Below, one piece after another: positions 3,005-11,653 of a DNA stretch of 13,340 bases. The notes under the pieces were generated by a model. It had not been told where the DNA came from, did not search any database, and saw nothing but the letters and a program-made list of their open reading frames with translations. This DNA is from Microcaldota archaeon. Lineage in GTDB: Archaea; Micrarchaeota; Micrarchaeia; Norongarragalinales; UBA8480. The stretch is from the NCBI GenBank assembly GCA_023247085.1, contig JAHFHC010000009.1, positions 28,424 to 41,763 on the forward strand, read 5' to 3'. Made by a program: the position numbers and the translations under genes. The first letter of the stretch is position 1. Each line of letters opens with the position of its first letter.

Positions 3005-4516
3005 ATGTCAAATATCCGTCAAGAAGAAGCTGAACGTTTTTACATGCGTTTTCGTCAACACGGCGAATTCGCACTCGCTACTTATGGATTAGACATTCCA
3101 AAGCCAATTGAACAGCTATTGCTAAAAGGAAGAAACGAAGATGCGCTCAATATATACTTACAATCTGGAAAGTACGATGACGACCCTGAATCAGTTATGA
3201 CTGCGATGCGGCGTAGCCGGCACCTAAAAAGCATTTTAAAATTAACAGAAGGACCAACTTATCGCGCGCAAGGAACGCGGATAGTTACGTATTATCCAGT
3301 GTTTCGAAAACACACAGTAAATGCAATTGCAATGACTGCTCACTTGCCAGAAGAAAGAATTGACAAAGCGGTTCAAGTAATTAAGGGACTGCACGTGCCA
3401 CACGCGCATAGGCCCGACTTGTTAGGTATGCTTACAGCTATGCCAGATATGCAAAAAGCGCTAGAATTGTATCGAACTGCCAGACCAAGCGAAAAAGCAC
3501 ACGTATATGATATTCGGCGGCTACCGGAAAAATTCAAAAAAGCATTACGCAAACAACGCATACCTACTGCTAAATGGTATAAAATAGCAGAAATTATAAC
3601 GCACAAAGGACTAACACCTCATTTGCAATTTACGCTGCATAACTTGAAAGATATAATTGAGCTTCCGGATTTTTATCCACAGGATTTAGGTAAATTACGC
3701 GAATTAGGAATAGCACGCGTAAAAGGATTTATTGATCAGTTTTCTGAAGAAAATAAAAAAGCTGCGTTTGATTTTATACTCGGCTGTCACACAAAATTTC
3801 CAGACGTATGGCACGATACACGATTAGCTGTAGCAGTGAAACAATACGGATTAAAATTGAAAAGTTATGAGGCATTAGTTGACATACAAAAAGAAATCGT
3901 TTCTCCATCTGGCTATGATTTTGAAGAATTAATGCGATTACGTAAAAAATATGGACAATATATAAGTGCTATTGTTCTTGAAGCTAAAGCAACAAAAGAA
4001 AGAGATTTAGAAAAAGTAGCTAGAATGCGCGATTGCGGCAGGGGTGGCGAATATCCTCAACAAATAATTAGAGCGAATGCAAATCATGTTGAGTTTCCAG
4101 TGGAAATTCGAAGTTGGAAAAACCCAGAAGACTTCTACTCTAGAGAGGAAGTGCACACTTTAGCGCATGCAGTTGACGGTAGGGCAATTGGTTGGATACG
4201 CACTCAACAAAGTCAAGGCAGGTTGTTTATTGATAATATTCAACATAGTGACCATAAGCTTCCAACTAAACTACGTAAAGAAACTGATAATTGGGATGAA
4301 GAGGCAATTGCATTTGCAGAGGAAAAAGCACGAGAAAAAGGGTTGAAAACAATTGTAATGAACACACCGCACGAAATGATACAGCGGTCACGCGGATTAG
4401 GGATAAATCAAGATACATTAAAGCGCTTTTATTATGATTTGCCTAAGAAAATGGGTTACGAGTTACAATATTTCCCAGATAAAAAAGGGTTTTACTGGAC
4501 AAAAGAACTAAACTAG
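3005..4516 (+). CDS. Unrecognised 503-residue protein with helical body and GNAT/polyvalent-like C-terminal domain
   Basis: I do not recognise the whole protein. It is soluble, with no signal peptide or membrane helix. Residues 1-340 look almost entirely alpha-helical with many short helix pairs and basic loops, suggesting a repeat-type scaffold; this is inference. Residues about 385-495 look like a separate domain: GWIRT and LFIDNIQHSD (396-416), then W430 and an amphipathic helix EEAIAFAEEKAREKGLKTI, then FYYDLPKKMGYE (475-486). That order of a strand with FIDxIQxSD, a helix ending AxExG, and a Y-x-lP-k-GY ending resembles a domain I recall from phage and mobile-element polyvalent proteins (IEEIQSDW). 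It also resembles the last half of GNAT acetyltransferases. No catalytic residue can be assigned. The ATG at 3005 follows a TATA box. The stop overlaps the convergent gene by nine bases. Confidence 0.8.
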   Translation: MSNIRQEEAERFYMRFRQHGEFALATYGLDIPKPIEQLLLKGRNEDALNIYLQSGKYDDDPESVMTAMRRSRHLKSILKLTEGPTYRAQGTRIVTYYPVFRKHTVNAIAMTAHLPEERIDKAVQVIKGLHVPHAHRPDLLGMLTAMPDMQKALELYRTARPSEKAHVYDIRRLPEKFKKALRKQRIPTAKWYKIAEIITHKGLTPHLQFTLHNLKDIIELPDFYPQDLGKLRELGIARVKGFIDQFSEENKKAAFDFILGCHTKFPDVWHDTRLAVAVKQYGLKLKSYEALVDIQKEIVSPSGYDFEELMRLRKKYGQYISAIVLEAKATKERDLEKVARMRDCGRGGEYPQQIIRANANHVEFPVEIRSWKNPEDFYSREEVHTLAHAVDGRAIGWIRTQQSQGRLFIDNIQHSDHKLPTKLRKETDNWDEEAIAFAEEKAREKGLKTIVMNTPHEMIQRSRGLGINQDTLKRFYYDLPKKMGYELQYFPDKKGFYWTKELN

Positions 4517-5185
4517 TTTATTGAGCTCTTCTACGGTAGTGTTTCCATTTAGCTTTTTGTCGTTTATTATTATCGCTGGAGCGGCGTCTACTTTGTAAAT
4601 TGATGATAGCATTGAAGTTGACGGAGTTGTAGGTGCGTAGTCTAGGTTAAAAGAATAGATGAGTATTCCTGGCGGGTCTTGTTTCTTGAAATCAGCTAGC
4701 ACAGTATCAAAAGGAGTGCATTCATTGCACTCTGTTTTAAAGAAGTAAACCACGAGAGTCAAATTCGTGTTGCACAGGGTTTTCAAGCGCTTCCAGAACA
4801 AGTAGTCGCGTGCCTCAAGGGCAAAATAGCGTTGTTCAAGAGCAAGTACATCAGCGCCTTGGCCGCGTTTTTGTTCAAACAAACGCAATCTTCTGCCAAC
4901 ATCAGCGGTTTGTACTCCTAAACTATGGGCGCTTTGTTCAACCGCATTACACATTTGAGTGTGGAGAATTGCATTGCTCGTTACGCTGGGGTCGCTTTCA
5001 AGAAGGGATAAAAACTCTAAATTCACGTTGCTTGTTTGTAATGAGTCAATTTCAGTGTAAAATGAATTGTTAACTTGTCCAGCAAGATAGTTTCCAATGC
5101 CAATGCCAAAAACGAAAACTATTATCGAAAGTATCAATGCTGTTACGTGTAGGGAAATTGAAAACGGTTTGCGGGGTTCTTCCAT
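4508..5185 (-). CDS. Membrane-anchored thioredoxin-fold protein (CNEC)
   Basis: Probably a thiol-disulfide oxidoreductase tethered to the membrane with its catalytic domain outside. Starting at the ATG at 5185 it has 225 residues: a short basic N-terminus, one membrane helix at about 13-35, a helical linker with a coiled-coil-like stretch (about 90-130), and a thioredoxin-like domain with VVYFFKTE then C153-N-E-C156, and AAP with the expected cis-Pro near 203. Two more cysteines, near 79 and 138, could form a second disulfide. The linker is longer than in plain thioredoxins. The frame is open for 18 more codons to 5239, but that extension overlaps the upstream glycosyltransferase by 38 bases and would put an odd polar and isoleucine run before the helix. 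The gene follows the family 2 glycosyltransferase by 16 bases, so the two are likely one transcript. Partner proteins are unknown. Confidence 0.8.
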   Translation of the reverse strand: MEEPRKPFSISLHVTALILSIIVFVFGIGIGNYLAGQVNNSFYTEIDSLQTSNVNLEFLSLLESDPSVTSNAILHTQMCNAVEQSAHSLGVQTADVGRRLRLFEQKRGQGADVLALEQRYFALEARDYLFWKRLKTLCNTNLTLVVYFFKTECNECTPFDTVLADFKKQDPPGILIYSFNLDYAPTTPSTSMLSSIYKVDAAPAIIINDKKLNGNTTVEELNKLV

Positions 5186-5201
5186 TATAATGATAATCAA
5201 C

Positions 5202-6398
5202 TCACCATTTTTGCTTTTTACCGAACAATTCTTCTCCAATGGTCGCTATCCAAAAAATTGAAGTGAAGTAAGTATATGCAAAGAGAAAAGCAAACAAGCG
5301 AGGTAGTGACACGAGTTGTTTGTCTTCGAATAACTTTCTGCCAATCAACAGCCAAGCTATTCCTATTAACAGGAGGATAGCTGACACTACTTGTATGCCG
5401 CCAAGAGTATAAATAAATGCTTCTAATGAAAACCAAGAAAAGAATTGTCCGGATATGATTTGCCATATAACCGAAGCAAAAATAGCAAATATGAGGATAA
5501 CGGTAAGTAAACTCATTGGAAGAATAACTATGCCCAAGTCTCCATAACGCGGGTTTAGCAACTTGCGGTGCTTGAAAACATTGCGCATGCCCCCGCGGTT
5601 CCATCTCACACGTTGGCGTAGTAAATCAGAAAACTTTGCTGGAACTTGCGTGTAGACTTCTGCAGATAAAGAGCTTAATATTTTGTAATTACGCGCTTGC
5701 AAGCGATAAGCCATCTCTTGGTCTTCCAAAATGCTAGTTTCGTCAAACAACCCCACTTTATCGAACACATTTTTTCTAAACACACTCATTGGACCAGGCG
5801 TAACAGTTACACTGTCAACAAATGACAATAACCTACGCGTGAAAAAAACAAATAAGTACTCTACACTTTGGAGTTTTTCAAGCCAATTTCTTGGCGAATA
5901 CACTTTAACTGCAGCAGTAACTGCGGTTATTGAATTATCTGCAAAAAAAGAGGCTAGCCGTCTCAGCGAGTCGCGAGATGGAAAAGAATCAGAGTCAAGT
6001 GTAGCTATTAACTCTCCAGTCGCTATGCGTATTCCTGCGTTTAATGCACTGCTTTTTCCAACTCCACAGTGCACGTGCCTAACTAGCTTTACGCCATATT
6101 TGGCAAACGATTGCACTTCGTTGACAGTATCGTCTGTACTTTCGTCGTCAACAACGATTATTTCCAGTTTAGATTTTGGGTAATTGAGATTTAGCACTGA
6201 GTCGAGCGTTTTAGAAATAGTGCCTGCTTCGTTTAAAACCGGAATTACAATTGAAACACTTGGGAGCGTACTATCTGGCAATAGTGAAGGCTCGCTGTAT
6301 AATTTACGTCGGCTTTGGAACAAGAGTAAAAAGTAGAAAATCGTAGCGTACAACGCTACAAATACCGTCACGTATTCTACAATAGGAAGAGAAGTCAT
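5202..6398 (-). CDS. Processive-type GT2 glycosyltransferase, membrane-bound
   Basis: An inverting family 2 glycosyltransferase of the cellulose/hyaluronan/poly-GlcNAc synthase type, likely making or extending an envelope polysaccharide at the cytoplasmic membrane. From the ATG at 6398 it has 398 residues: one N-terminal helix (about 9-28), a GT-A domain with VSIVIPVLNE, VVDDESTDDT (Asp pair 84-85), DSD (135-137), TPGP, the catalytic ED (225-226) and QRVRW (QxxRW, 262-266), then three or four C-terminal helices (about 288-316, 325-354, 366-388). All expected catalytic motifs are intact. A TTG ten codons upstream at 6428 is in frame, but its neighbourhood contains the TATA-like CCTATATAC, placing the promoter about 22 bases before the ATG; this favours a leaderless transcript from 6398. 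The next gene is a thioredoxin-fold protein 16 bases downstream. The polymer made cannot be deduced. Confidence 0.92.
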   Translation of the reverse strand: MTSLPIVEYVTVFVALYATIFYFLLLFQSRRKLYSEPSLLPDSTLPSVSIVIPVLNEAGTISKTLDSVLNLNYPKSKLEIIVVDDESTDDTVNEVQSFAKYGVKLVRHVHCGVGKSSALNAGIRIATGELIATLDSDSFPSRDSLRRLASFFADNSITAVTAAVKVYSPRNWLEKLQSVEYLFVFFTRRLLSFVDSVTVTPGPMSVFRKNVFDKVGLFDETSILEDQEMAYRLQARNYKILSSLSAEVYTQVPAKFSDLLRQRVRWNRGGMRNVFKHRKLLNPRYGDLGIVILPMSLLTVILIFAIFASVIWQIISGQFFSWFSLEAFIYTLGGIQVVSAILLLIGIAWLLIGRKLFEDKQLVSLPRLFAFLFAYTYFTSIFWIATIGEELFGKKQKW

Positions 6399-6496: not shown

Positions 6497-8683
6497 CTAG
6501 TCCATAAAGAACTGTGCAGTTGGCAGTTGTTCTGGTTCGCCTTTGCGTTTGCGAATAGAGAGTATTGTTTTGTTTTGTAACTCGCTTGGCATTTTTTCGT
6601 ACCCAGCATATTCAGTGTACCATACAGCTCTGCCTTGTGAAGCGCCGCGCATTTCACTTGCGAATCCAAACATTTCACTGACTGGCACTTTAGCATTTAG
6701 AGTAACTGATTCTCCTTCTTGTTGCATGTCTACTATTTGTCCACGTCGGCCTTGCACTTGGCTGATTACACCGCTCATGTATTCACTTGGCGTATTAACA
6801 ACTAGTTTTTGCTTTGGCTCAAGTAACATTGGCTTAGCGGTTAAGAAAGAAGCATAAATTGGGCGTTTAATTGCAGGCAAAATTTGCGCCGGACCACGGT
6901 GAGCTGGGTCAACGTGAATAGACGCATCTTCAAGTTTAACTTTAACGCGCACACATTCTTCTTTTGCCATTGGACCTTGTTTTACTGCTTCTGTAAAGCC
7001 TTGGACAATTAACTCTTGAATGTCTTGCAAGTATTGTACCCCTTTTGTCACGTCTATGAACAAGTTATTTTCATAAACTGACAACACTTTACGCGCTTCT
7101 TCACGAGGTAAACCTGCTTTAATTAAACGTTCTTGAAGGTCTTTGCCTTTCATTTTATCGTGCAATTCTCCTTCTTCAAAAGCTTTTACAACTGACTCTT
7201 CAAGTGGCTCAACGCTTATCTTGAATTTGTTGTGCTTGTTCGGCGATTTTCCATCAATAGTTGGCCCACCGGTTGTGACGGTCTCGTGGTAAACTACAAT
7301 TGGGGGCGAAGTTGTAATTGCAACGCCGCGTTCTTTTTCAATTTTGTATTCAATGATTTCTAAATGGAGTTCTCCCATTCCAGAAAGTAAGTGTTCGCCG
7401 GTTTGCTGGTTGATTTCAACTCGAATCGTGGGGTCTTCTTTTGCAATTTTGTGTAACACTTCTACAAGTTTTACAAGGTCTTTTGGATTCTTTGCTTCAA
7501 TTGACTTAGTGACAACTGGCTCAGAATGGTGTTTGATTTTCTCAAACGGAGTAATTTCGCCTTCGGAAATAGTTTCTCCAGCATAAACATCATGTAGCCC
7601 AACAAGCGCAACTATGTTACCTGCAATTGCCGTATCTACCAGCACTCGATCTGGCCCCATGTAAAGGGCAACTTGCTGTACTTTTTCAGTTTTAAATTTA
7701 GAAGCAACCCAAAGTTCAGTGCCTTTAGAAATTTTTCCACTGTACAATCTACCAACAGCAACTTCTCCTGCATGTGGGTCGTTTTGAATAGCAGTTATGA
7801 CAAAACAAGCTCTGCCGCTTGGGTCGCAGTTAACCATTGATTTTCCAACTTCGCTTTCTGGTTCACCGTGCCAAATAGTTGGAATCCGGTACTTCTGTGC
7901 ATTAATTGGCGAAGGCAAGTGAGCAACTACCATGTCAAGAACAATGTCATCAAGGGGCGCTATTTTTTGTAATGAGGCATGTTCAGCGTTTTGGCATTTT
8001 TCGTACATTTGTTTAAATGACAAGTTATTCTTTTTCATAACTGGATACGAAATAGCCCATTTGTTATAAGCAGTGCCAAAACACACGTTTCCTGCTTCTA
8101 CATTGATTTTCCAACTTTCTTTAAATTCAGCTGGGCCAAAGCCATCAATTAGCTTGTTGACTCCGGAGATAATTTTTATGAAACGTTGCTGCATGGCGTT
8201 GCTGTCCAATTTTAATTCATTAATAAAACGGTCGATCTTGTTGATGAACAAAACAGGCTTAACTTTTTCTTTTAATGCTTGGCGAAGCACAGTTTCAGTT
8301 TGTGGCATTATCCCTTCAACACAATCAACTACTAGGATAACCCCGTCAACTGCACGAAGTGCACGGGTAACGTGCCCGCCGAAATCAACGTGGCCAGGAG
8401 TGTCGATTAAATTAATTAAAAAATCTTCATTGTTCACTTTAGCTGGAACGGAAATATTAGCGGCTTTAATTGTAATTCCACGCGCTTGTTCTTGCTCATC
8501 GTAATCAGTAACTCGTTGTTCTCCAGCAAGTTCTTTGGAAATTAACCCCGCGCGTGCAATAAAGGAATCTGAAAGGGTACTCTTACCGTGGTCTACATGT
8601 GCAACAATTCCCATGTTGCGGATGTTCTTTTGGTTGTACATTAGTTTCTGAACGTGTTCAGCCACTGCTTCTTTAGTTGCCAT
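6497..8683 (-). CDS. fusA: Translation elongation factor 2 (aEF-2)
   Basis: The GTPase that drives ribosomal translocation, the archaeal counterpart of EF-G. At 728 residues it is full length. The G domain has G1 AHVDHGKST (28-36), G2 RGIT (68-71), G3 DTPGH (94-98) and G4 NKID (148-151). Domain II includes the GRLYSGKISKG region (311-321), domain III has GMGELHLE (435-442), and domain IV carries DPAHRGPAQ (592-600), in which H595 is the residue expected to be converted to diphthamide. The diphthamide histidine is intact, so dependence on the dph pathway is likely, though no dph gene is in the window. The ATG at 8683 follows a TATA-like TTTAAAAT by about 24 bases, so the gene may have its own promoter as well as readthrough from S7 (47-base gap). 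A terminator follows; EF-1A does not. Confidence 0.98.
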   Translation of the reverse strand: MATKEAVAEHVQKLMYNQKNIRNMGIVAHVDHGKSTLSDSFIARAGLISKELAGEQRVTDYDEQEQARGITIKAANISVPAKVNNEDFLINLIDTPGHVDFGGHVTRALRAVDGVILVVDCVEGIMPQTETVLRQALKEKVKPVLFINKIDRFINELKLDSNAMQQRFIKIISGVNKLIDGFGPAEFKESWKINVEAGNVCFGTAYNKWAISYPVMKKNNLSFKQMYEKCQNAEHASLQKIAPLDDIVLDMVVAHLPSPINAQKYRIPTIWHGEPESEVGKSMVNCDPSGRACFVITAIQNDPHAGEVAVGRLYSGKISKGTELWVASKFKTEKVQQVALYMGPDRVLVDTAIAGNIVALVGLHDVYAGETISEGEITPFEKIKHHSEPVVTKSIEAKNPKDLVKLVEVLHKIAKEDPTIRVEINQQTGEHLLSGMGELHLEIIEYKIEKERGVAITTSPPIVVYHETVTTGGPTIDGKSPNKHNKFKISVEPLEESVVKAFEEGELHDKMKGKDLQERLIKAGLPREEARKVLSVYENNLFIDVTKGVQYLQDIQELIVQGFTEAVKQGPMAKEECVRVKVKLEDASIHVDPAHRGPAQILPAIKRPIYASFLTAKPMLLEPKQKLVVNTPSEYMSGVISQVQGRRGQIVDMQQEGESVTLNAKVPVSEMFGFASEMRGASQGRAVWYTEYAGYEKMPSELQNKTILSIRKRKGEPEQLPTAQFFMD

Positions 8684-8730: not shown

Positions 8731-9339
8731 CTACCTGGCGGATTTGGCCATTCTTTCAGCTTCGTTCTTTCTCTTTACTGAGAAGGAGTCTTGAGAGTTC
8801 TTTGAAGCGAGTATAATTTCATTTGCAAGTGCATCTGCTACACTGGCTTTTTTGTCAAACGCTTGAATAATAGCAGCTAGACAAATGTTGCGAAGTGCTG
8901 TGTCTAACCTGCGTTGTGGAGCAGAGTCAACTGCAACTTGATAAGCAATTCCACCCATTCGCACACGAGTAACTTCTTCTTTTGGAGCACTGAATTCAAT
9001 TGCCTTTACAAGTAATTGAATTGGATTTTGATGAGATTGTTTTTCAACAACGGCAAAAGCATCTTTTACGATTTTAATCGCTTTAGATTTTTTGCCTTGT
9101 AGTTTTCCATGAGTGCGAATGATTTTTCCACCGGTTTTTTCACCAGTTCCACCACGCATTAGCTTGTTCACTAAACGCTCAACAACGTTTACCCCTTGCT
9201 TAGCAAATTGTTTATTTGCATGGCGGGCATACGAGTGAGGGATTAAAACGGGCTTTAAGCTAAGCACCTGGTTTATGCTAGGGTCGTTTATCGTTATTCC
9301 ATCGTACGAATATATTCCAAACAACTTTATTTCTGTCAT
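8731..9339 (-). CDS. rps7: 30S ribosomal protein S7 (uS7)
   Basis: A primary 16S rRNA-binding protein of the 30S head, contacting the E-site tRNA. It has 202 residues, the usual archaeal length, which is longer than bacterial S7. Family landmarks are the archaeal N-terminal extension IKLFGIYSYDG, the LKPVLIPHSYARHANKQF stretch (28-45), VERLVNKLMR (53-62), NPIQLLVKAIEF (105-116), a near-invariant EEVTRVRMGGIAYQVAV (121-137) with PQRR following, and an archaeal C-terminus ending KRKNEAERMAKSAR. The ATG at 9339 is preceded by a 74-base purine-rich leader after S12 without an evident TATA box, so it is most likely read from the S12 transcript. Confidence 0.97.
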   Translation of the reverse strand: MTEIKLFGIYSYDGITINDPSINQVLSLKPVLIPHSYARHANKQFAKQGVNVVERLVNKLMRGGTGEKTGGKIIRTHGKLQGKKSKAIKIVKDAFAVVEKQSHQNPIQLLVKAIEFSAPKEEVTRVRMGGIAYQVAVDSAPQRRLDTALRNICLAAIIQAFDKKASVADALANEIILASKNSQDSFSVKRKNEAERMAKSAR

Positions 9340-9413: not shown

Positions 9414-9842
9414 TTACCTCTTTGGTTTCTCTTTTCTGCCAAGTCGAAGTTCTTCTAAGGATACTCCATTTACGGCAATTACTTTATAACGAACTCCCGG
9501 AATTGACCCCATTTGTCCACGTTGTGAACCGCCAAGTCCAGCAATTGTCACTTCGTCGTGTTCGTCGATTTTTTCAACTGCCTTGTCGCGCGGGCAATGC
9601 GCTGCAACTTTTTTACCGTTCTTGAGAAGTTGGACAACTACACATTTAATGATTCCAGAGTGAGGCTGCTTTTGTTCCATTCCTTTTTTCTTAATAACAA
9701 TACCTTTGGCCATTGGCGCGCCTTCAAGTGGATCGTATTTGGCTTTTAAACCAAGGGCTTTGCGCTTCCATGGCTTCTTTAGCCAACGGTGCTTCTGGCG
9801 CTTTCTTTTCAATAACCTGCCTGCGTACATTCCACGTGCCAT
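9414..9842 (-). CDS. rps12: 30S ribosomal protein S12 (uS12) with altered decoding loop
   Basis: The small-subunit protein that lines the decoding centre and influences accuracy. At 142 residues it is full length for archaea. Clear family segments are KRKRQKHRW (12-20), KYDPLEGAPMAKGIV (35-49), IDEHDEV (92-98), PGVRYKVIAVNGVSLEEL and a C-terminal GRKEKPKR. The loop that is normally KQPNSAIRKC reads KQPHSGIIKC (58-67): Asn to His61, Ala to Gly63, Arg to Ile65. The GDIPGVRY segment reads GSIPGVRY, with Ser113 replacing the conserved Asp. Pro60 and Ser62, whose equivalents touch the codon-anticodon minor groove, are kept. The bases are unambiguous and the frame is intact, so this is not a frameshift. 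The start is supported by GAGGT nine bases upstream; the NusA-like stop lies 16 bases before the ATG. Confidence 0.97.
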   Translation of the reverse strand: MARGMYAGRLLKRKRQKHRWLKKPWKRKALGLKAKYDPLEGAPMAKGIVIKKKGMEQKQPHSGIIKCVVVQLLKNGKKVAAHCPRDKAVEKIDEHDEVTIAGLGGSQRGQMGSIPGVRYKVIAVNGVSLEELRLGRKEKPKR

Positions 9843-10274: not shown

Positions 10275-10580
10275 TTAACGATTTTCCTCTGCTAATTTTA
10301 ATATATCCGAGTTACCAGCGTCAATAACTGACAATGCACTTACTGGAAAAGGTTTTCCACATATAACTCCCAGTTCGGAACTTGAACCCGCGAACGTAAG
10401 AATTGGAACACTTGAAAGTGCAGCGTAGTGAACTATATCTTGTTTAACGCTTGGCTGACAATTACGGGCAACTACGATTGCCTTTACTTCACCTAACATT
10501 GCGAGCTTCTTAGCGCTATCGCTGCCAAGGATAGTTTTACCAGTGTCAACTGCCATTCTAATAGCCGTGTTTAAATCCAT
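10275..10580 (-). CDS. rpl30e: 50S ribosomal protein L30e (eL30)
   Basis: An RNA-binding ribosomal protein of the L7Ae/L30e fold. It has 101 residues, as expected. Visible family features are DLNTAIRMAVDTGKTILGS (2-20), the K(L)AMLGEVKAIVVARNC nucleic-acid-binding segment (25-41), DIVHYAALSSVPI (48-60), and GSSSELGVICGKPFPVSALSVID (65-87), ending SDILKLAEE. It heads the translation cluster; the KH-domain gene begins two bases after its stop. In many archaea this gene directly follows rpoA2, but here a 200-base gap and a transporter lie upstream. A TATA-like TTTTTAAA centred about 31 bases upstream of the ATG is the likely promoter of the cluster. Confidence 0.94.
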   Translation of the reverse strand: MDLNTAIRMAVDTGKTILGSDSAKKLAMLGEVKAIVVARNCQPSVKQDIVHYAALSSVPILTFAGSSSELGVICGKPFPVSALSVIDAGNSDILKLAEENR

Positions 10581-10780
10581 ATGTGATTAACAACTCAATT
10601 ACTACAATTTAAAAATCTAAAACCTAAATTTAAGACTTGGTTCTCCACCACAAAAAGAAGCACGGACAAAATCCCTAAAGAATTTCAACGCCGTATATTT
10701 CGTGACTTCCCAAGCTTATTATTTAAGAGCAAAACAGGTTTAAAAACCCTTTTGAACATTATTTTCTCTTTTCTATTTTA
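10581..10780 (-). other. 200-base gap between EamA transporter and L30e: promoter region, no firm gene
   Basis: The L30e-proximal part holds the cluster promoter. In the rest, one minus-strand frame is open for about 32 codons (roughly 10623-10718) without a convincing start, ending in FCGGEPSLKFRF and a stop. A 24-codon ATG frame lies just upstream in another frame. Neither resembles a protein I know. An imperfect palindrome around GGTTTAAAAACC (10738-10749) is AT-rich and short. No tRNA cloverleaf is visible. It may be degraded coding sequence left by the transporter insertion or a structured leader; neither is established. Confidence 0.35.
10608..10615 (-). promoter_or_regulatory. TATA box of the L30e-nusA-S12-S7 cluster
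   Basis: Minus-strand TTTTTAAA, centred about 31 bases before the L30e ATG, with no Shine-Dalgarno-like site between. This is a plausible archaeal TATA box giving a leader of only a few bases. The region is AT-rich, so the exact element is uncertain. Confidence 0.45.
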
Positions 10781-11653
10781 TTATTTAGCTAATATTGCAT
10801 TTAGTCCAATGATAATTAATATTACACTAACAATCATCGGCAAAGTCAAAGCTTCTTTGAAAAATAAGAAAGATAGGATTGCAACAAAAACAGGAACTTG
10901 GCTATAAACTAAACTAGACGTTTTTGTTGGGCCTAAATCTTTAATCCCATAATTATAAAGCAAATAACCTAATCCAGAACCAAATATTCCCATATACAAT
11001 ACTGAAAGGATCGATGCAAGAGATATTGCTTGAATTTGTGCAACACCACCTTCTAAGATTGCCAAGAAAAAAAGCATTACAACTGCAGAAGCAGTTGCAT
11101 AAAAAGTTAACGTAAAACTGTCATATTTCTTGCTGAGATTTTTGATAATCACCGAATATACTGCCCAACTAAGAACCGCAAGCAACATCAAAATATCTCC
11201 ATAATTAAAATTTAAGCCAATTATTGTTTGAATTTTACCACTAGTAATAAGAATTAATACACCAACAAAAGCAAGAAAAATTCCAAGATAGTTCTTTTTT
11301 GATAATCTTTCTTTTATGAAAATGGCAGCTAATAATCCAGTCGCAAGAGGGCCAAATGCACCAATTATCGCAGTATTTGCAACCGATGTATGTTTGAGGC
11401 TGCTAAAGAAGAAAAAATGATAACCGATGATTCCAAAGATGCCTAATAGCGCCATTTTGTAAATATCTTCTTTTTTAATTTGTAATGAAGATGGCCTATA
11501 GCAGAAGATTAGTAAGGTTAGAAATACAAGCGCAACGGCATATCTCAAAAAGGTGGTTGTTAATGGTTCTAAGTCAAACGTCGTATATTTTGCAGCAATA
11601 TAACTTCCTGAAAATAATATTGCGGTTATTATTGGGATATAAAACTTTTTCAT
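10781..11653 (-). CDS. DMT-superfamily EamA transporter
   Basis: A ten-helix inner-membrane permease of the drug/metabolite transporter superfamily, probably an exporter of an amino acid or other small metabolite; the substrate cannot be told. At 290 residues it shows two EamA repeats. The first ends GPLATGLLAAIFIKERLS (101-118) followed by GIFLAFVGVLILI, and the second ends QVPVFVAILSFLFFKEALT (252-270) followed by VSVILIIIGL. The paired Glu of KERLS and FKEALT are the family hallmark. Base use differs from its neighbours: by hand count about 16 CG dinucleotides in 873 bases, against about 29 in 600 bases of the PRPP synthetase region. It also interrupts the usual rpo-L30e order. Both facts suggest horizontal acquisition. 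A TATA-like TTTAAATA lies about 26 bases before the ATG. Confidence 0.93.
   Translation of the reverse strand: MKKFYIPIITAILFSGSYIAAKYTTFDLEPLTTTFLRYAVALVFLTLLIFCYRPSSLQIKKEDIYKMALLGIFGIIGYHFFFFSSLKHTSVANTAIIGAFGPLATGLLAAIFIKERLSKKNYLGIFLAFVGVLILITSGKIQTIIGLNFNYGDILMLLAVLSWAVYSVIIKNLSKKYDSFTLTFYATASAVVMLFFLAILEGGVAQIQAISLASILSVLYMGIFGSGLGYLLYNYGIKDLGPTKTSSLVYSQVPVFVAILSFLFFKEALTLPMIVSVILIIIGLNAILAK

Follow-up and report, generated by a model that had tools for sequence, protein, structure and literature searches.

The closest described counterpart of the protein considered here is the canonical archaeal/eukaryal uS12 (S12p/RPS23; TIGR00982, PRK04211). In the E. coli protein, Asn45, Arg49, and Asp88 (residue numbers that count without Met) were found by molecular dynamics to lie in a single hydrogen-bond network that connects the PNSA loop with the PGVR loop and in which the carboxylate of D88 hydrogen-bonds the side chains of N45 and R49 (PMC4224418). 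According to a review, the D88 pocket consists of 16S rRNA nucleotides 522-528 and S12 residues 44-51, D88 is present in all known homologues, and D88 mutants of E. coli have been unobtainable (PMC3347575). The accuracy and streptomycin mutants of bacterial rpsL affect the same two loops but mostly involve K42, K87, P90, and their neighbors. As for natural variation, the accessible part of a phylogenetic survey of RPS23 gives the archaeal variation in the KQPNSA region as Lys to Arg, and that part makes no mention of the variant described below (PMC8570412).

The uS12 of the Micrarchaeota shares with the canonical protein its length, fold, gene neighborhood, and residues K58, Q59, P60, S62, and K66, but it has N61, R65, and D113 replaced and Q57 and a GGSQRGQMG run added. 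The K60R uS12 of thermophilic archaea is likewise a natural, lineage-specific change within the KQPNSA region; it exchanges Lys for Arg with other regions conserved (PMC8570412), whereas in Micrarchaeota it is N, R, and D that are exchanged, with the Lys unaltered. The disease variant R67K of human RPS23 (PMC9912815) affects the site that equals I65 but is one conservative replacement in an otherwise canonical protein, whereas the Micrarchaeota have a fixed Arg to Ile change plus changes in both partners. We found no publication on this uS12 variant in the open-access literature, which does not prove that there is none.

The window, that is, the whole stretch of 13,340 nucleotides that was analyzed, contains the gene in the following cluster.

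6497..8683, minus strand: aEF-2, downstream of rps12, with GTP_EFTU and EFG domains
8731..9339, minus strand: rps7 (uS7), downstream of rps12, with a match to PF00177
9414..9842, minus strand: rps12 (ribosomal protein uS12), an uninterrupted open reading frame of 142 amino acids, the sole copy in the genome
9859..10272, minus strand: NusA-like KH protein, upstream of rps12, with KH_2 and KH_5
10275..10580, minus strand: L30e/L7Ae-family protein, upstream of rps12, with a match to PF01248

The order L30e-nusA-rps12-rps7-EF2 places rps12 at its resident locus, and the original prediction, which had taken it for the resident copy from gene order, is confirmed by the rps12-rps7-EF2 cluster. The search for a second rps12 that it had called for came back empty, with no other S12 gene, canonical or otherwise, in the 892,562 bases of the host genome, which is 92% complete. 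The translated protein passes both archaeal/eukaryal models, NF003254 (202.3 bits; cut-off 196) and TIGR00982 (186.1 bits; cut-off 140.2), and scores 125.4 bits with PF00164 (cut-off 22.3). Its predicted structure (pLDDT 81.5) has the uS12 fold, with an N-terminal extension and a globular domain, and the best structural matches are uS12 chains from solved ribosomes, the top one being an archaeal uS12 chain (Z 18.6, rmsd 8.5 over 137 residues); no solved Micrarchaeota ribosome turned up. The window gene is the resident single-copy uS12 of a Micrarchaeota archaeon. No uS12 was found when it was sought in viral contigs. Elsewhere in the window, the open reading frames at 3005-4516 (plus strand, 503 amino acids) and 4508-5239 (minus strand, 243 amino acids) are without a Pfam match and are flanked by glycosyltransferase genes, and an EamA transporter gene lies upstream of L30e (window 10275-11653), a position often occupied by RNA polymerase genes in other archaea.

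The translated uS12 includes EQKQPHSGIIKCV and GGSQRGQMGSIPGVRY, and the codons that concern us here, all on the minus strand, are as follows.

9504-9506, minus strand: TCA, Ser113, equivalent to E. coli D88, usual residue D, third member of the changed network
9513..9524, minus strand: codons of Q107-R108-G109-Q110, within the phylum-specific run GGSQRGQMG that precedes the GSIPG loop
9648-9650, minus strand: ATT, Ile65, equivalent to E. coli R49 and human R67, usual residue R, second member of the changed network
9654-9656, minus strand: GGA, Gly63, equivalent to E. coli A47, usual residue A
9660-9662, minus strand: CAC, His61, equivalent to E. coli N45, usual residue N, first member of the changed network
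9663..9674, minus strand: codons of Q57-K58-Q59-P60, of which Q57 is fixed in Micrarchaeota and K58 and P60 are conserved

These codons bear out the four substitutions originally read from the sequence (N to H61, A to G63, R to I65, and D to S113), and the accompanying claim of an intact frame with Pro60 and Ser62 kept also holds, as the reading frame is uninterrupted and P60, S62, K58, and K66 are all present. Where a canonical loop has N61, R65, and D113, the window protein has H61, I65, and S113. The Asp at the D88 position that marks a substrate for methylthiolation by RimO, an enzyme described as restricted to bacteria (PMC10702137), is Ser113 here. There is also no Arg for the Lys of KQPNSA as in the thermophile K60R type, since K58 (K42 of E. 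coli, K60 of human) is retained, as it is in nearly all Micrarchaeota sequences. The near-invariance ascribed to the loop is borne out for N and R in the other archaea sampled, which also keep D113, but not for Ala63, as PNSG also occurs in Pyrococcus (4v4n), a Nitrosopumilus (L100), and one Altiarchaeote (L394). Ala63Gly was accordingly dropped as a lineage marker and is regarded as incidental. Each of the listed substitutions is real, but because N45, R49, and D88 belong to one published network (PMC4224418), the three replacements among them are better read as one concerted change in one structural unit than as separate items. Q57 and the GGSQRGQMG run had been missed by the original prediction.

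The changes extend far beyond this genome. S12 is present in 58 of 60 near relatives and in 142 of 146 genomes sampled across Micrarchaeota, with one match per genome and a single exception in which there are two partial matches on separate contigs. Genomes of the same genus, whose S12 proteins are 93-99% identical, share the changes, and the closest S12 proteins among named genomes are those of Micrarchaeota from metagenomes, the top one being 99% identical. Among 161 distinct Micrarchaeota uS12 sequences, positions 57 and 63 are Gln and Gly in all 161 (position 57 is Ala or Ser elsewhere), and position 65 is only Ile, Leu, or Val, with Arg in none. Position 113 is Ser (87), Cys (62), Ala (8), His (2), Arg (1), or Trp (1) and never Asp, and position 61 is His (143), Asn (13), Ser (4), or Thr (1). 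N, R, and D are found together in all 26 distinct sequences from outside Micrarchaeota (haloarchaea, Nitrosopumilus, Thermoproteota, and Altiarchaeota) and in all 26 Altiarchaeota genomes where S12 was found, while the codon pattern for QPNS(A/G)xRKC occurs in at least 153 of 196 genomes in the phylum of Salinarchaeum, a floor because the pattern also requires Cys67. On this sampling, loss of R65 and D113 is a mark of the whole phylum Micrarchaeota. The divergence is hence real, as originally claimed: the same-genus proteins agree, the archaeal alignment that had been proposed sets the Micrarchaeota apart, as a monophyletic lineage with the changes in common, from the other archaea sampled, and the canonical relatives that would have spoken against it did not appear, R65 and D113 being absent from every Micrarchaeota S12 read. 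Codons 57, 61, 63, 65, and 113 differ synonymously among Micrarchaeota while the residue classes persist, which indicates that the residues and not the DNA are held and fits selection on the protein. One sequence labeled 'Candidatus ainarchaeum sp.' (L081, JAQTMJ010000002.1) has a typical Micrarchaeota S12, which means that its label is wrong or that the trait extends past Micrarchaeota.

Positions 61 and 113 do not vary freely with respect to each other. The pairs in 159 genomes are H-S (77), H-C (62), N-A (8), N-C (6), S-H (2), and one each of S-R, S-C, N-W, and T-C; His61 always occurs with Ser or Cys at 113 and never with Ala, His, Arg, or Trp, and the latter four are all accompanied by Asn or Ser at 61. 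The genus-level split is 87:0 versus 5:8 (Fisher 7e-9, a value that ignores relatedness), and on a 16S tree from which the decoding columns were masked out, the two positions never change jointly in opposite directions, although with 3 to 6 independent pairs no sign test could be significant. The most suggestive single case of coupling is genus g25, where the alignment has His and Ser swapped between the two positions, from PHSG...GSIPG to PSSG...GHIPG. Position 61 is unusually variable in genus g58 of family f10 (e.g., L222, L224, and L226), with His, Ser, Asn, and Thr all in one genus.

The original prediction had also suggested a compensating change in 16S rRNA, and here the window genome and some of its relatives give different answers. 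The 16S rRNA of the window genome (L052) has the canonical C518, G527, U1406, U1495, A1408, A1492, A1493, and G530, it matches other archaea in h18, h27, and the decoding core of h44, and no compensating changes at 518, 527, 1406, or 1495 were found in it. Hence the uS12 change can exist without those rRNA changes. The suggestion does hold for two sister families of Micrarchaeota, which we label f10 (probably Micrarchaeaceae) and f14, in which nearly all genomes have G518 and A527 in h18; a third family, f12, has A518. In the sampled Micrarchaeota the U1406-U1495 pair is retained in 38 genomes and is C-G in 62 and G-C in one (G064), and the Watson-Crick pairs belong to f10 and f14, with the replaced nucleotides to be seen, for example, in loci L161, L163, L164, L167, L173, L175, and L297. 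The C1406-G1495 pair tested in bacterial A-site mutants at U1406/U1495 (PMC3140962) is therefore a natural state in these two families, though not in the window's genome. Both sides of the neighboring pairs also change together, 1405-1496 being GC in 89 and AU in 12 and 1404-1497 being UA in 53 and CG in 47 with one mismatch, while G530, C519, A1408, A1492, and A1493 are invariant across the sampled Micrarchaeota.

Two of the rRNA positions can be related to the protein. Every one of the 30 G527 genomes has H61/S113, and Cys, Ala, His, or Arg at 113 is found exclusively with A527, position 527 being part of the D88 pocket; the 527 change is one event on the tree, so the link between 527 and 113 is a single observation. 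Among genomes of the A527 clade, the two that combine Ser61 with a basic residue at 113 (G049 and G062) both have C518, versus none of the 53 others. These two are on separate branches of the tree, and the link between 518 and Ser61 rests on these two lineages, which are too few independent events for a tree-based sign test. For the S61/C113 genome G073, a potential third case for the link to 518, no 16S was found in its assembly. Both links would fit direct contact, as far as the few events on which they rest can indicate.

Several further features of these 16S genes were noted. In 8 Micrarchaeota genomes, U replaces C1400, the nucleotide that stacks beneath the P-site wobble pair (16S loci L155, L172, L175, L300, and others). 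A1410G, which seemed phylum-wide in the first set, was rejected because this base pair varies freely once more sequences are included. Genome G009 has two 16S matches (G009:C77); the one that the tree puts outside the phylum was left out, keeps G1417, and probably represents a contaminant contig. Many Micrarchaeota 16S genes have large insertions at several positions (e.g., L158, L165, L170, and L176) that are probably introns, which have been reported for Mia14 and relatives (PMC5498576). Outside the core, nearly all of the first set of Micrarchaeota 16S sequences differ from E. coli and the sampled archaea at several positions, for example by C to U at 817, G to A at 1061, C to G at 1366, and G to A at 1417. 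DPANN 16S genes have been reported to mismatch commonly used primers (PMC8407392), and part of the rRNA divergence is thus already known in that form.

We propose, and consider probable, that the N-D-R joint was replaced in a concerted, phylum-ancestral change by an uncharged H-I-S joint that still supports ordinary decoding. The ancestor of Micrarchaeota would have swapped the charged N45-D88-R49 network as a set, and the joint loss of the Arg and Asp charges would leave the pocket neutral. The replacement joint would be smaller and uncharged, with H61 opposite S113 (Ser or Cys) in a putative contact and with the aliphatic I65 perhaps filling the room vacated by the Arg side chain. P60, S62, and K58, which contact the codon-anticodon helix, were retained, as were the rRNA monitors A1492, A1493, and G530, such that decoding should proceed as usual with a differently built loop-loop joint. 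The new joint may later have eased the rRNA changes (518, 527, and 1404-1406 with 1495-1497) in two families. Whether this amounts to a stepwise alternative decoding center, with N-D-R replaced phylum-wide and 518, 527, and U1406-U1495 then rebuilt in concert in f10 and f14, is a proposition for which we would give equal weight to yes and no.

An unlikely alternative explanation of the concerted replacement is relaxed selection in small-genome, partner-dependent archaea, in which mildly harmful loop changes are tolerated and an old accident was frozen in one ancestor. The genomes of Micrarchaeota are indeed small (about 0.5-1.7 Mb), and the rRNA of two families also diverges at sites that are usually fixed, but relaxation predicts scatter, and it is contradicted by the paired rRNA changes (1404-1497, 1405-1496, and 1406-1495), by the covariation of 61 and 113, and by sites that are tightly held after the change, with Q57 and G63 universal in the phylum and 65 restricted to three aliphatic residues. 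Selection of the new loop for altered decoding fidelity or escape from an inhibitor would be in keeping with the many S12 mutations of bacteria and yeast that alter accuracy (PMC4224418) and with the disease link of human R67K at the site of I65 (PMC9912815). Yet accuracy and streptomycin response are most firmly tied to K58 (E. coli K42), which nearly all sequences retain, and no inhibitor is implicated, and such an adaptive origin would seem quite improbable.

With haloarchaea, Nitrosopumilus, Thermoproteota, and Altiarchaeota as the archaea compared, the changed uS12 can be traced to the base of the Micrarchaeota or below it, not more exactly. That leaves some room for a deeper DPANN origin, in which the change would be shared with other DPANN phyla (Nanoarchaeota, Iainarchaeota, Aenigmarchaeota, and Nanohaloarchaeota), but the 26 Altiarchaeota, which are near DPANN in some trees, are canonical, and we think this rather unlikely. 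An artefact of sequencing, assembly, or paralogy might be suspected since most of the genomes are metagenome assemblies; the data already refute it to the point where its chance is practically nil, as the same changes occur in well over a hundred independent assemblies that come from many sites and all genomes but one have a single S12 match. They also occur in sampled genome G056, which is very probably that of the co-cultured 'Ca. Mancarchaeum acidiphilum' Mia14. The complete Mia14 chromosome has 952,257 bases (PMC5498576). G056 has both kinds of change, with PHSGQIK/GCIPG in uS12 and G518, A527, and C1406-G1495 in 16S rRNA, and their presence in a co-cultured organism makes the finding experimentally reachable and excludes an assembly artefact.

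The three lost residues are regarded as near-universal and are located where the ribosome checks the genetic code. A whole archaeal phylum, a cultured species included, lives without D88, for which no mutant of E. coli could be obtained (PMC3347575). The divergence helps to explain why 'universal' decoding-site alignments or primers can fail for Micrarchaeota. Moreover, the Micrarchaeota offer a natural experiment that separates the fixed parts of the decoding site (P60, S62, A1492, A1493, and G530) from those that are exchangeable as a set, and their loops provide a direct test of whether the N-R-D network must change together.
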